From a virus, in the IMG/VR virus record IMGVR_UViG_3300036791_001063, positions 1 through 36,728 of that record: a DNA stretch of 36,728 bases. One strand, 5' to 3'. Each line of letters starts with the position of its first letter. Within the stretch, counting starts at the first letter, position 1. This document shows positions 6,414-36,728 of the stretch, piece after piece. Under the pieces are notes generated by a model, which made no database searches, was not told the DNA's origin, and saw nothing but the letters and a program-made list of their open reading frames with translations. Both the position numbers and the translations under genes were made by a program.

Positions 6414-6610
6414 TGCCGATCAGATCCGCAAGCGGCCAGGTGCTTCCGAGCCTGTCGGGCACGAGCTTTCCGTTGGCGCCGCAGCAGATGAACATGAACG
6501 CGGTCTGGGCGATGCGCCGGCTGCAACGCCAGCAATCGAGTCTCGGCAAGCAGGCGCCGCCCGGCAAGATCCAGGGCCCGCCGCGACCACTGAAGTTGAA
6601 GAGGTACTGA
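6413..6610 (+). CDS. Small basic virion-operon protein, unknown
   Basis: The product has 65 residues; ATG 6413 overlaps the previous stop as TAATG, and its own stop overlaps the next ATG as TGATG. The chain is Gln/Arg/Pro-rich with one predicted helix (about 24-42) and a basic PRPLKLKRY end. It lies between two Ala/Gln-rich virion proteins and is presumably co-translated with them. Confidence 0.65.
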   Translation: MPIRSASGQVLPSLSGTSFPLAPQQMNMNAVWAMRRLQRQQSSLGKQAPPGKIQGPPRPLKLKRY

Positions 6611-8391
6611 TGGCTGTCACCAACGTCACCGGGGGCGGGACTCAGGTTCGCGTGCCACTGCCGACCGCTGCGCAGGTCGCGCAGTTTCAGGCGCAGCAGA
6701 ACGCTGCGGGGAATAGAGCCCTCGCCGCGGGAAAGATCACGGGGCGACCGGTCACGACCACGCCGCAGTTCACCGGCAACACGTACGGCACGGTGCCGAA
6801 CACCGTGAACACGTCGAAGCCGGCGCCGAAGCCCGCGGCGAAGCCTGCTGCGGCGAAGCCGGCGGCTCCCACGAAGCCGGCACCGAAGCCTGCGGCGGCG
6901 AAACCACAGGCGAAGACGACCGTCACGATCAAGCACAACGTGACGGGCCACCCCAACGTCACGGTCGCGCATACGCACCCGGCTGCCCAGCCGAAAGCAC
7001 CGCAGCAGCCCGTCAGCCTTGCTCAGCGTGCCGCCAACATGGGCGTCGTCAACCCGGCGTACAACTACTCGAGCGCGCAGTTGCTGCAGATCGCGCGGCA
7101 GATCACGGCCGGCCAGACCAACGCGGTCGTCAATCCGCTGCGCCAGCAGGCCGCCGACATCGGCGCTCAGGGCCGCGCAGCCACCGGTCTCTACCAGGCC
7201 GGGCTCGCGAAGGGCCAGAACATTCTCGCCGGGCTGGCGGCCGATCAAGCCGCGGGCCAAGGCCAGCTCGCGGGCGCGCAGACGCAGCAGGCGCAGGACG
7301 TCGCGAACATGATCAGCGGTGCCGGCAACACGGCGACGCAGCTGTACGGCGGCACGCTGTCGCCGCAGGCGCAGGCGGCGCAGCAGGCAATCGCTGGCGC
7401 TGCCGGCGCGACCGCCGGAGCTCGCACCGCATTCACCAACACGGCCGCACAGAACCAGGCCAACTACCTCAGAGATCTGCGCGGCAACGCGGCAGCGGTG
7501 GCGGGTCCGGCGGGCGCCGCGCAGCTCGGGACGGCGTACGCGCGGCTGTCGGCGCCGGTCCAGCAGGCGATCCAGACCGCGCTGTCGAAGCAGGGTCCGG
7601 CGGCGAAGCAGTTGGCGCAGACGCTCGGCCAGCAGCAGTTCGCGAACCAGATCCTGCGCAAGGAGTACGGCCTCAAGGCGTACACGGCGCAGACGCAACG
7701 CAAGGTTGCGACCTACAACTACCTGCTCGGTCAGGGCAAGGAGCAGATCGCGGCGGCGAACTCGCAGACCGCGGCGTTCAACGCGCAGACGCAGCGCGCG
7801 TACGACCAGGCGAAGACTAAGAACGACGTGGCCAACACCCAGCTGAAGACGTATCTCGGCAACCAGAACATCGCGATCCGCAACGCCCAGCTCGCGATCA
7901 ATCAGGCGAACGCGGACACCGCAGCGGGCCGGTTGACCGAAACTCAACGCCACAACCGTGTGACAGAGCAGCAGGCGATCATCAAGCAGGCGAGAAAGAA
8001 CGCGACGAACCCGACGAGCCTCAAGGGGATCGGGAACATCTACACGGCGATGGGCGTCTACCGCAGCAACACCCAGATCCCGCACGCCTACACGAATGCC
8101 GCGGGCCAGTCGGTGACAGGCAAGGTGCCAGCGGTGCAGGCGCGCGTCATGCTGCACGGCGATCGCCGCTTCTCGGGACCGGAGGCCGAGGCGGCATACG
8201 AGATGGTGACCTACGGCTACATCTCGCCGACGACCGAGCGGCAGTTGCGCCAGTCAGGCGTGAATCCGCCGTACTCGATGTTGACGAAACGGCCGACGAG
8301 CGGCGCTGTGTCCGCCGCAGGCCGCAACACTGGTGGCGTATCGGGTCGTGCCCAGGTTCCCAAGAGCGACATCACCGCCCCGAAGAAGTAG
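6610..8391 (+). CDS. Large Ala/Gln-rich helical virion protein (internal/ejection-type candidate)
   Basis: The product has 593 residues from ATG 6610. The N-terminus (VTGGGTQVRVPLP) matches that of the 5571 gene. Residues about 70-120 are a Lys-Pro-Ala linker (repeated KPAPKPAA-type units). Residues about 130-480 are nearly all Ala, Gln, Asn and short helices, which suggests long amphipathic helices or coiled coils. The C-terminal 100 residues are more globular. Long helical proteins in this position are often internal or ejection proteins that cross the wall with the DNA. A tape-measure role is less likely, because there are no hydrophobic segments and the nozzle-like protein argues for a short tail. 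Confidence 0.7.
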   Translation: MAVTNVTGGGTQVRVPLPTAAQVAQFQAQQNAAGNRALAAGKITGRPVTTTPQFTGNTYGTVPNTVNTSKPAPKPAAKPAAAKPAAPTKPAPKPAAAKPQAKTTVTIKHNVTGHPNVTVAHTHPAAQPKAPQQPVSLAQRAANMGVVNPAYNYSSAQLLQIARQITAGQTNAVVNPLRQQAADIGAQGRAATGLYQAGLAKGQNILAGLAADQAAGQGQLAGAQTQQAQDVANMISGAGNTATQLYGGTLSPQAQAAQQAIAGAAGATAGARTAFTNTAAQNQANYLRDLRGNAAAVAGPAGAAQLGTAYARLSAPVQQAIQTALSKQGPAAKQLAQTLGQQQFANQILRKEYGLKAYTAQTQRKVATYNYLLGQGKEQIAAANSQTAAFNAQTQRAYDQAKTKNDVANTQLKTYLGNQNIAIRNAQLAINQANADTAAGRLTETQRHNRVTEQQAIIKQARKNATNPTSLKGIGNIYTAMGVYRSNTQIPHAYTNAAGQSVTGKVPAVQARVMLHGDRRFSGPEAEAAYEMVTYGYISPTTERQLRQSGVNPPYSMLTKRPTSGAVSAAGRNTGGVSGRAQVPKSDITAPKK

Positions 8392-22986: not shown

Positions 22987-23241
22987 ATGGGAAATCGCCC
23001 CCTCGGTCAGCGGGCGGCCACGTTCAGACAGCGCATCATCGACGCGATCTACGACGAGCGTGAGCCCGAACGCTATTGGCACATCGACCGCGATCGAGTC
23101 GTCGGTGTCTGCCCAGCGTGCGACTACCCGATCCACGTCTGGTTTCACGGCACCGCGCCCAGGGCGAACATCTGGTGCGAGACCGGCTGCTCGCAGCGGC
23201 TGATCATCGCCGCGATCCGCTCACAGTCTGGGTGGCGATGA
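22987..23241 (+). CDS. Small zinc-finger-like protein
   Basis: The product has 84 residues (ATG 22987). A helical start (RAATFRQRIIDAIYDE) is followed by CPACDYPIHVWFHG and WCETGC, a CxxC plus C-x(3)-C layout consistent with one zinc ribbon like those in primase-type proteins. Its stop overlaps the next ATG (ATGA). First gene of the plus-strand accessory block; function unknown. Confidence 0.65.
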   Translation: MGNRPLGQRAATFRQRIIDAIYDEREPERYWHIDRDRVVGVCPACDYPIHVWFHGTAPRANIWCETGCSQRLIIAAIRSQSGWR

Positions 23242-23771
23242 CCGTCCGCCTGGTCAGCAGGGAAGGCGAGCTGATCGAGGATGCCGAGGCCAGGATCCAG
23301 TACCTCGAGGACCAGATCGCCGGGATGCAGCGCGAGCTGAACGCGTGGCGGCTGCGATACCGCGAGCTGGAACGCGCCAACGACGAGCGTGACCGCCGGG
23401 ATGCGCTGTGGCCGATCGTAATGGCGCTGTTCGACGAGTGGCGCGAAGCGACCCGGCACGAGCGCTCGCAGTGGTCACCGAGCCGCTTCCGGATGGCGAA
23501 ACCGTACCTGCGCACTTACGGAAGGGAGATCGTGCGCTGCGGCATCCACGGGATCGCGCTCGACCCGTTCAAGACGAAGCGCGCGAACGGCACGGTCGAG
23601 CGCCACGACGGCTGGGCGCTGCTGTTCCGCGACACCGACCACTTCGAGCGCTACGTCAACCGCGCTCCGCTCGCGATGCTGGCGGCGCTGCCGAAGCTGA
23701 AGAAACCCGTAAGAGTCGAGGCGGCGCTGCCGCAGATCGGGCTGTTCGAGATCCAAACGGAGGCCACATGA
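23238..23771 (+). CDS. Unknown protein with N-terminal coiled coil
   Basis: The product has 177 residues from ATG 23238. Residues about 12-60 are a strong coiled coil (EDAEARIQYLEDQIAGMQRE). A globular domain follows, with Trp/Tyr/Arg-rich helices and a basic loop (FKTKRANGTVERH). It ends EIQTEAT and overlaps the VUT-like gene by 4 bases. No family recognised; a DNA-associated role is possible. Confidence 0.65.
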   Translation: MTVRLVSREGELIEDAEARIQYLEDQIAGMQRELNAWRLRYRELERANDERDRRDALWPIVMALFDEWREATRHERSQWSPSRFRMAKPYLRTYGREIVRCGIHGIALDPFKTKRANGTVERHDGWALLFRDTDHFERYVNRAPLAMLAALPKLKKPVRVEAALPQIGLFEIQTEAT

Positions 23772-23953
23772 CCCGCAGACTGCAGATCGCCCTACTCGTC
23801 GCCACGTTCCTCGCCGCGATCGTCGCGGCCAACCTGATCACGACGCACTACGGCGTCAGCGCCGTCTACTACGTAGCGGTCGGCCTGATCGGCCTCGATC
23901 TGGTCAGTCGAGACCGCTTGAGCGACTGGTGGGGCACGACGCGGTGGGCCTAG
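23768..23953 (+). CDS. Truncated VUT/YhhQ-like membrane protein
   Basis: The product has 61 residues from ATG 23768. Two hydrophobic helices are visible (about 8-27, LLVATFLAAIVAANLITTHY; about 33-46). The pattern AAIVAANL and GLIGLDLVSRDRLSD follows the N-terminus of VUT (YhhQ) proteins, which import queuosine precursors. Family members are usually some 150 residues or more, so this chain ends early, at TAG 23951. The frame continues after the TAG into the TGT-like sequence, so it appears to be a deletion junction. If made, it is probably not a working transporter. Confidence 0.6.
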   Translation: MTRRLQIALLVATFLAAIVAANLITTHYGVSAVYYVAVGLIGLDLVSRDRLSDWWGTTRWA

Positions 23954-24379
23954 CTCGCCGGCGTTCCTGGCTGCCTGTTCGTCGTTGCCCCCGACGTCGT
24001 CGGCGATCACGCCGCGACGCGCGCGCGCTTCGATGACTGGTGGCCCGAGCTCGACGTATGCGGGCAGCCGATCGCGTTCGCCGCCCAGGACGGCATCGAG
24101 CTCGACGACGTGCCGTGGGATCGCATTAGCGCCCTGTTCCTCGGCGGCTCGACCCATTTCAAGCTCGGCCCCGACGGCGCGCGCGCGGCGCGCGAGGCGA
24201 AGCGCCGCGGGCTGTGGCTGCACATGGGGCGCGTCAATACCGCGAACCGAGCTAGGTATGCCGCGACGATCGGCTGCGACTCGTTCGACGGCTCGAAGTT
24301 CTCGCGCTGGCGCACGACGTGGCTGGCCGACGGCTTCGCGTTCGCGCAAGCCCCGCCGCAGCTCGCGTTCGAGTTCTAG
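23954..24379 (+). pseudogene. TGT/DpdA-like barrel protein, N-terminus lost
   Basis: Frame 2 is open from just after TAG 23951-23953 to TAG 24377-24379 and reads GCLFVVAPDVVGDHAATRAR, IAFAAQDG, LFLGGSTHFKLGPDGA, LWLHMGRVNT and IGCDSFDGSKFSRW. I associate this pattern with short phage proteins related to the tRNA-guanine transglycosylase/DpdA barrel, which place 7-deazaguanine in nucleic acid; that link is from memory. The family normally has about 60-80 more residues before the VVAPDVVGD motif, and none are here. The first usual start in frame is GTG 24110, so only an 89-residue fragment could be made without read-through. Confidence 0.6.
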
Positions 24380-25693: not shown

Positions 25694-26526
25694 TGGCGCT
25701 GAAGCGAGTCTGGATCCCGTCGCAGTTCTACAGCTCGCGCGGAGGAGCGAGCGTGCGGCTGATCGTGGTGCATACGGCGGAGGGCGCGACGACGATTGAG
25801 AGTCTCGGATCGTGGTTCCAGAACCCATCGGCGCAGTGCTCGAGCCACGCCGGCGCCGACGACAAGGTCAATACGATCGGTGAGTACGTCGACCAGGACA
25901 AGGCGTGGACGCAGGCCGACTACAACCCGGTCGCGGTGTCGATCGAGTTGTGTGGCTTCGCGGCCTGGACAGCTTCGGACTGGGCGGCGCATCCGAACAT
26001 GCTCGACAACTGCGCCAAGTGGATCGCCGAGGAAGCGAAAGCGCTCGGGATCCCGATCACGAAGCTCAGCGCGAGCGAGGCGCAGGGGTCAGGCCGCGGC
26101 GTCTGCCAGCACGCCGATCTCGGCGCCGGCGGCGGCGGACACTGGGACTGCGGCTCGTCGTTCCCGATGGACGACGTGCTCGACATGGCTCGCGGCGGCG
26201 GGCAACCGGCACCATCGATAACGGAGGGCGAGATGATCGCATCAGGCTCGAACGCCGGCGACACGCCGCATGTGTTCTGGGTCGGCTCGAACCACCAGGA
26301 GATCTACTACCGCTGGAAGTCCGACGGCCACTGGCAGGGCGGCAACCTGTTCGCGAAGACCTCGAAGGACGTGACCGGCCTGTCGTGCGTCACCGACGCC
26401 GGCGGCAACTTCAACGTCTTCGCGCGCCTCGCCGACGGCAACGTGCGCTACACCTGGCAGGCGAAGGGCAAGGGCGACTGGAACGGCAAGGGCTCAACGC
26501 CGGCGGGGCTGATCGCATTCCCATAG
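25693..26526 (+). CDS. N-acetylmuramoyl-L-alanine amidase endolysin with lectin-like C-terminus
   Basis: The product has 277 residues from ATG 25693. Residues about 15-165 form an Amidase_2 (PGRP-like) domain: VVHTAEG (H27), SSHAGAD, NPVAVSIELCG, GVCQHADLG (H140) and HWDCG (D152/C153). H27, H140 and D152/C153 are the expected zinc ligands. Residues about 190-275 have repeated HVFWVGSNHQEIYYRWK and FNVFARLADGNVRYTWQ segments, a beta-propeller/PLL-like pattern that suggests wall or glycan binding. It has no signal peptide, so release depends on a holin. Role: cutting peptidoglycan at lysis. Confidence 0.88.
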   Translation: MALKRVWIPSQFYSSRGGASVRLIVVHTAEGATTIESLGSWFQNPSAQCSSHAGADDKVNTIGEYVDQDKAWTQADYNPVAVSIELCGFAAWTASDWAAHPNMLDNCAKWIAEEAKALGIPITKLSASEAQGSGRGVCQHADLGAGGGGHWDCGSSFPMDDVLDMARGGGQPAPSITEGEMIASGSNAGDTPHVFWVGSNHQEIYYRWKSDGHWQGGNLFAKTSKDVTGLSCVTDAGGNFNVFARLADGNVRYTWQAKGKGDWNGKGSTPAGLIAFP

Positions 26527-35629: not shown

Positions 35630-36719
35630 CTGGCAGGCGCTCGAGGCGCTTCCGAAGCGCGAGCGCGAGCAGGCCCGTTCTCTGCTGGAGGAGTATGAGC
35701 GCGCGCTGAAGGCGAATCCGCTCGAGGGTTACGTGCCGCATACGAAGCAGGAGATCTTTCACTACTCCCGGGCGCCGGCGAAGTGTTTCTACGGCGGCAA
35801 TCGCAGTGGCAAGACGACGGCGGGGATTCTGGATGATCTGATCCAGACGGTGGATGACAGCGTCGTGCCGGATCATCTGAAACCGTACAAGTGGGGTCGG
35901 CCGCCGTTCTACTGCCGGATCGTGACGCCGGATTTCACCTCGACGATGGAGGGCGTCGTGTTCCAGAAGCTGCGGGATTGGACGCCAAGAGGCCAGCTGA
36001 TCGGTGACTCCTGGGACCGGGCCTACGAGAAGCAGCACCGGCGGCTGAATTTCAAGAACGGGTCGTGGTTCGACTTCATGACGTTCGAGCAGGATCTCGA
36101 CAAGTTCGGTGGTGTCGCTCTTCACAGGGTTCACTACGACGAGGAGCCGCCGAAGCTGATTCGCCAGGAGTGCCAGTTCCGGCTGCTCGACTTCGCGGGT
36201 GACGAACTGTTCACGATGACGCCGCTGAAGGGCATGAGCTGGATGTTCGAGGAGTTCTACGACCCGTGGGAGAGGGGCGTGCTTGAGGATGCGTCTGTCG
36301 TGCTGGTCGACATGGATGACAACCCGTATCTGGATGAGCGCACGAAGCAGCGTGTCCTCGCGGGACTCAGTAGGGAAGAACGTGCTGCTCGAAAGTCCGG
36401 TCGTTTCGTGCATTTCGCTGGCATGGTCTACCCGGAGTTCAACCGCGCCACCCATGTCACCCCTAGTGCTGCTGTTCCTGAGAACGCCACTGTGGTCGGA
36501 GCTATCGACCCAGGAACAAGACATATGGCGGCGGTGGTGTGGGCGTATCTGGGTACCAACGACGATCTGGTCATCTTCGAGGAGCTCGGGTTGCCGGAGA
36601 TGACGGTCGCCCAGGTCTGCAAGCGGATCCGCCTGGTCGAGGCGAAGCACCAGCTTCACATCAATGCGTACATCATCGATCCTGCTGCCAGGAACACGAG
36701 CCATCAGACGGGTCGATGA
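35613..36719 (+). CDS. terL: Terminase large subunit, frame broken near the window end
   Basis: 368 residues visible from ATG 35613. Walker A G61-GNRSGKTT (K67), Walker B VALHRVHYDEE (D176-E177), coupling motif TMTP (201-204) and the start of the nuclease domain: VVGAIDPGTRH (D299) and YIIDPAARNTSHQTGR (D356). It packages DNA with ATP and cuts concatemers. A TGA at 36717-36719 ends the frame inside the RNase H-like nuclease, where more is expected. One extra base in the G run 36710-36712 would keep it open to the window end (reading SMMYA). The true 3' end is outside the window. Confidence 0.85.
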   Translation: MRIRIDWQALEALPKREREQARSLLEEYERALKANPLEGYVPHTKQEIFHYSRAPAKCFYGGNRSGKTTAGILDDLIQTVDDSVVPDHLKPYKWGRPPFYCRIVTPDFTSTMEGVVFQKLRDWTPRGQLIGDSWDRAYEKQHRRLNFKNGSWFDFMTFEQDLDKFGGVALHRVHYDEEPPKLIRQECQFRLLDFAGDELFTMTPLKGMSWMFEEFYDPWERGVLEDASVVLVDMDDNPYLDERTKQRVLAGLSREERAARKSGRFVHFAGMVYPEFNRATHVTPSAAVPENATVVGAIDPGTRHMAAVVWAYLGTNDDLVIFEELGLPEMTVAQVCKRIRLVEAKHQLHINAYIIDPAARNTSHQTGR

Positions 36720-36728
36720 TGTACGCAT

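Follow-up and report, generated by a model that had tools for sequence, protein, structure and literature searches.

A virus record of 36,728 bases, analysed over its whole length (the window), carries at 23768-24379 on the plus strand the remains of two genes that meet at an amber codon. The first is the beginning of a VUT (YhhQ-like) transporter gene and the second the end of a short DpdA-like transglycosylase gene. The site is quite probably a deletion scar, left when a deletion inactivated a pair of genes for the salvage and insertion of preQ0/queuine. The observations behind this reading are that both pieces have homologues, that both are truncated, that relatives show the two genes in this order, and that the missing part of the enzyme is not encoded in the window. 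The pair is most likely an ordinary deletion relic, an ordinary case of the loss of an accessory phage module, and the target of the lost module was most likely the modification of DNA or tRNA.

The sequence-only reading placed the site at 23930-24115, an interval that covers the junction but only part of the feature, which spans 23768-24379. It also described two halves in one frame split by TAG at 23951-23953, and the reading-frame analysis bears this out. The frame opened by ATG at 23768 reaches that TAG after 61 aa, and 141 further codons (23954-24376) follow in the unchanged frame up to TAG 24377-24379. The features of the region are:

23238..23771, plus strand: upstream gene, intact-looking, 177 aa (open reading frame; GC3 0.89, similar to its neighbours)
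23768..23953, plus strand: N-terminal remnant of a VUT/YhhQ-like transporter, 61 aa, ended by TAG (phrog_4899, E=3e-7; 53% identity to L137)
23951..23953, plus strand: amber codon TAG where the two homologies meet, to within about 5 codons either way (extents of both homologies)
23954..24379, plus strand: C-terminal remnant of a DpdA-like tRNA-guanine transglycosylase (TGT; phrog_15826), 141 codons, without start codon or barrel strands 1-3 (phrog_15826, E=4e-43; 65% identity to L001)
24110..24379, plus strand: longest product of the second half with a normal start, GTG, 89 aa (open reading frame list; positions of alignment motifs)

The upstream gene overlaps the start codon of the transporter piece as ATGA (23768-23771), and a family search with it gave no confident family (best E=0.016). 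VUT homology extends to residue 55-60 of the 61 in the transporter piece, and DpdA homology begins 0-6 codons past the amber codon; both homologies are far too strong to be put down to chance. The earliest in-frame ATG, GTG or TTG after the amber codon is the GTG at 24110, which lies 3' of the conserved CLFVVAPDVVGD...AQDG motifs; judged by alignment positions, the 89-aa product that starts there lacks the PDVVGD and QDG motifs. Either piece has a GC3 of ~0.90, and from the amber codon to GTG 24110 the value is 0.88. Because these values match those of the neighbouring genes, base composition indicates that the entire stretch is coding now or was until lately. TAG acts as an ordinary stop elsewhere in the window (endolysin, 26524-26526; gene 6610-8391), and recoding of TAG was rejected because other window genes end in this codon.

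For the 61-aa piece the family match is phrog_4899 (E=3e-7, positions 5-61 of 175), and it is through this family that sequence homology assigns it to the VUT/YhhQ-like proteins (Pfam Vut_1, phrog_4899). In our controls phrog_4899 has matches in nine genomes, those of E. coli and B. subtilis included, and these nine are also the ones with Pfam Vut_1. A blastp comparison with complete VUT proteins in a small custom database gave E=7e-12, and the best relative, L137, is 53% identical over 53 aa without a gap. Counted from the N terminus, the piece covers ~37% of a phage VUT/YhhQ-like transporter. Relatives with a closed frame are all 144-214 aa long as against 61 aa in the window, in agreement with the earlier view that the C-terminal two thirds of a VUT protein are lacking, and the piece falls short of a complete membrane domain (~155-200 aa). 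In a Pfam search the stub itself has no Vut_1 match because the Vut_1 matches of its relatives fall in the missing part; four of the nearest complete relatives and gp04 of phage ReqiPine5 exceed the Vut_1 gathering score (38.9-49.1 bits vs 27.2). An independent family of small membrane proteins (phrog_16898, 57 aa) was tried for this frame and rejected, its match having E=0.24 vs 3e-7 for the VUT family.

The 61-aa piece is short and has drifted, and for this reason queries with it alone brought up no relative among phages and viral contigs (one match at E=5). The VUT relatives found first had a slightly different loop. The motif IGLDLT-x-RD-x-LH was then scanned for with a degenerate DNA pattern, which returned a large phage subfamily, gapless over ~50 residues and up to 53% identical to the window piece. 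Among 20 sequences the window piece is the worst at family-conserved positions, keeping 14 of 20 where the others keep at least 17; two of its six lost positions (T and H) belonged to the collecting pattern, so that their loss counts less. Four losses, one of them conservative, remain at positions free of this bias.

The 141-codon piece matches positions 70-183 of the 212 in the profile of phrog_15826 (E=4e-43), which makes it the C-terminal two thirds of this family. In Mycobacterium and Arthrobacter phages, members of phrog_15826 carry the annotation DpdA-like tRNA-guanine transglycosylase, and the best relative, L001, is 65% identical to the window piece. In the C-terminal part of the family 27 columns reach a conservation of 90% or more, and the piece keeps every one of them, which with the profile match establishes homology to the C-terminal half of the barrel; it is also free of frameshifts and additional stops. 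Missing from it are the first ~65 residues, including P26 and D45, which are invariant in the 19-member alignment. An unfiltered search of all six frames of the window with the DpdA N-terminal profile (the region of the W-A-A-D-N motif) gave no match. The P26/D45 region is absent from these frames, as expected if the second half lacks the N-terminal part of the TGT-like family, which the sequence-only reading had claimed.

L001 is modelled, at pLDDT 90, as an eight-strand barrel whose strands occupy residues 2-5, 20-25, 42-44, 70-74, 103-107, 123-126, 151-154 and 173-175. The window piece starts at the equivalent of L001 residue ~64-67, and predicted barrel strands 1-3 are therefore gone. D45 stands after strand 3, and from its position and order we take it to be, probably, the counterpart of the catalytic Asp102 of the Zymomonas TGT. 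TGT structures dominate among the Foldseek matches of the model (best E=3e-5), and in VIA-align TGTs are tied with pyruvate kinase barrels at Z 14-14.5. The Pfam TGT family (PF01702) has no match in the 19 complete relatives, and hhalign against four actinobacterial TGTs, with thin alignments, gave none. It is thus the modelled fold and the annotation by others that point to TGT kinship of the second half; sequence profiles give no link.

Complete copies of both genes as neighbours, which the sequence-only reading had proposed to look for in related phages, are present at some twenty loci, a few of them duplicating one phage. Short proteins like those of the window occur in no complete relative, and no other family is a better fit for either half. 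In many metagenomic phages the complete VUT and DpdA genes share a strand, usually with VUT first, and overlap or nearly do so; in some relatives a few hundred bases separate them or the order is reversed. Rhodococcus phage ReqiPine5 has both families in the order and on the strand seen in the window (gp04-gp03), but its genes are complete (177 and 206 aa) and overlap by 4 bases. Mycobacterium phage GreaseLightnin (gp54-gp55) and related Mycobacterium phages have a VUT-like gene directly 5' of a 'DpdA-like tRNA-guanine transglycosylase' that is 54.6% identical to the window over the common part; unlike in the window, both genes are complete. The IMG/VR contigs L137, L086 and L120 contain the nearest VUT subfamily (IGLDLTxRDxLH) and the closest transporter relatives, each with a DpdA gene directly behind, and these pairs too are complete where that of the window is not. 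Control loci fetched by endolysin or terminase (L026-L058) have neither VUT nor DpdA, and near relatives of the whole phage, sought with the 1484-aa protein, TerL and the endolysin as queries, gave no syntenic copy of the site.

The order DpdA then VUT is found in L001:4800-5965, L065, L077, L108 and L096, so the pairing persists through rearrangement. A second, independently broken pair occurs at L012:4338-5393 (IMGVR_UViG_3300031521_000089), where only the C-terminal part of VUT is left, split over two frames, and the DpdA gene has an in-frame TGA inside its ...STD-stop-KLG... stretch.

The distance from the RD motif of VUT to the F before PDVVG of DpdA is 511-600 nt in tight VUT-then-DpdA pairs vs 69 nt in the window. 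Therefore ~440-530 nt are missing, at the spot where both homologies stop. The earlier proposal that one deletion took the 3' part of the first gene and the 5' part of the second holds for the double truncation at the meeting point, while the single event is what we infer as the simplest cause from the sequences compared: the closest relative has only 65% amino acid identity, no parent is close enough to define the break, and the exact break is visible in none of the relatives. The ancestor would have had a complete VUT (YhhQ-like) transporter gene with a short DpdA-like transglycosylase gene directly behind it, a module that may have imported preQ0 or queuine from outside and swapped guanine for that base in DNA or RNA. 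A deletion of ~440-530 nt would then have taken ~100 codons from the 3' end of the transporter gene and ~65 codons, the start codon among them, from the 5' end of the enzyme gene. The remaining product would be at most a 61-aa membrane stub with two predicted hydrophobic stretches, because the amber codon stops translation at the seam. No active protein would come from the enzyme half: it has no normal start before its motifs and lacks two invariant residues and three barrel strands, and the loss of these first three strands should leave the barrel unable to fold or act. We infer loss of function for the remnant and a salvage role for the intact pair.

The DpdA half appears to have been lost only recently or to be still under some constraint, because 27 of 27 conserved columns are kept, frameshifts and extra stops are absent, and GC3 is 0.88-0.90. 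The transporter half has drifted too, and decay may not have been one recent step. A possible though unlikely variant of the deletion reading, compatible with it, is stepwise decay in which the transporter was lost first, through a point mutation or small deletion, and drifted before one or more later deletions took the start of the enzyme. Conservation is indeed uneven, with drift in the VUT half and none in the DpdA half, which may reflect an earlier loss of the transporter and a recent loss of the enzyme, and different lesions break the two genes in L012. In the window, however, a single point, give or take about 5 codons, marks the end of both homologies, and one deletion needs fewer steps.

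The barely decayed look of the DpdA half also suits an assembly misjoin, in which a metagenomic contig joined two strains or copies and skipped ~500 nt, leaving both genes whole in the living phage. The window is a metagenomic virus record of the IMG/VR type, the 13 bases at its end repeat 36664-36676 in inverted form (reverse complement), and contig L027 has 126 bases identical to the window and then diverges, so there is an assembly branch nearby. A pure misjoin, however, would not be expected to cost the VUT half its conserved residues, and the viral_contigs search found no contig with an intact version of these pieces; we regard a misjoin as improbable. Readthrough of the amber codon into a membrane-tethered half-TGT of ~203 residues that is made, used and maintained by selection, say as a decoy for the host TGT or as its partner, would fit the single frame, the lack of any other stop and the coding-type base composition, but is extremely improbable given that TAG is an ordinary stop in the window, that the product would lack three barrel strands and the invariant D45, and that no relative among the loci read has such a fusion.

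The intact pair would belong to the 7-deazaguanine pathway. YhhQ transports preQ0, and DpdA is tied to 7-deazaguanines in phage DNA (PMC6884629; PMC11888242). The presumed pathway of the intact pair is that of phages with DpdA-dependent 7-deazaguanine DNA modification such as CAjan, Rosebush and 9g, which carry preQ0-synthesis genes and a DpdA linked to modification (PMC6884629), unlike the window, which has none of the synthesis genes sought. Searches for the TGT, QueC, QueD and FolE families gave no match in the window record, which may be a fragment, and QueC is present in only 2 of 12 tested records with the DpdA family (absent from 10). Because of these absences and the known roles of YhhQ and DpdA, the natural reading of the intact pair, by analogy, would be that a base from the host or the medium is imported and then inserted. 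Phage Orion, however, which encodes DpdA with no preQ0 synthesis in phage or host, had no modification (PMC6884629). The site is a mildly useful pointer to VUT plus short DpdA as a recurrent unit of two adjacent genes in phages that mostly lack QueC. A salvage-plus-insertion unit that is gained and lost offers a simple, testable model for the phages of Hutinet et al. that encode DpdA without preQ0 synthesis.

Several further features were observed at the end of the window and in relatives of the enzyme. Compared with L027:1-126, the end of the window (36590-36728) looks like an assembly branch plus a hairpin-type end artefact, and L027 may continue the phage. A DpdA-like protein at L013:5001-5492 has an insertion of ~28 aa with two CxxC-type motifs (zinc-ribbon-like) between its GG and K-L motifs. 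Arthrobacter phage Sonali (L014) combines a short DpdA-like gene with a separate 'queuine tRNA-ribosyltransferase' (gp81 and gp87) and QueC, and has no VUT match. In Escherichia phage phiG7 (L193:1294-1886) the DpdA-like family is apparently split over two overlapping annotated genes, possibly by a frameshift, and these are flanked by the annotated genes for a DNA polymerase beta subunit and a DNA polymerase.
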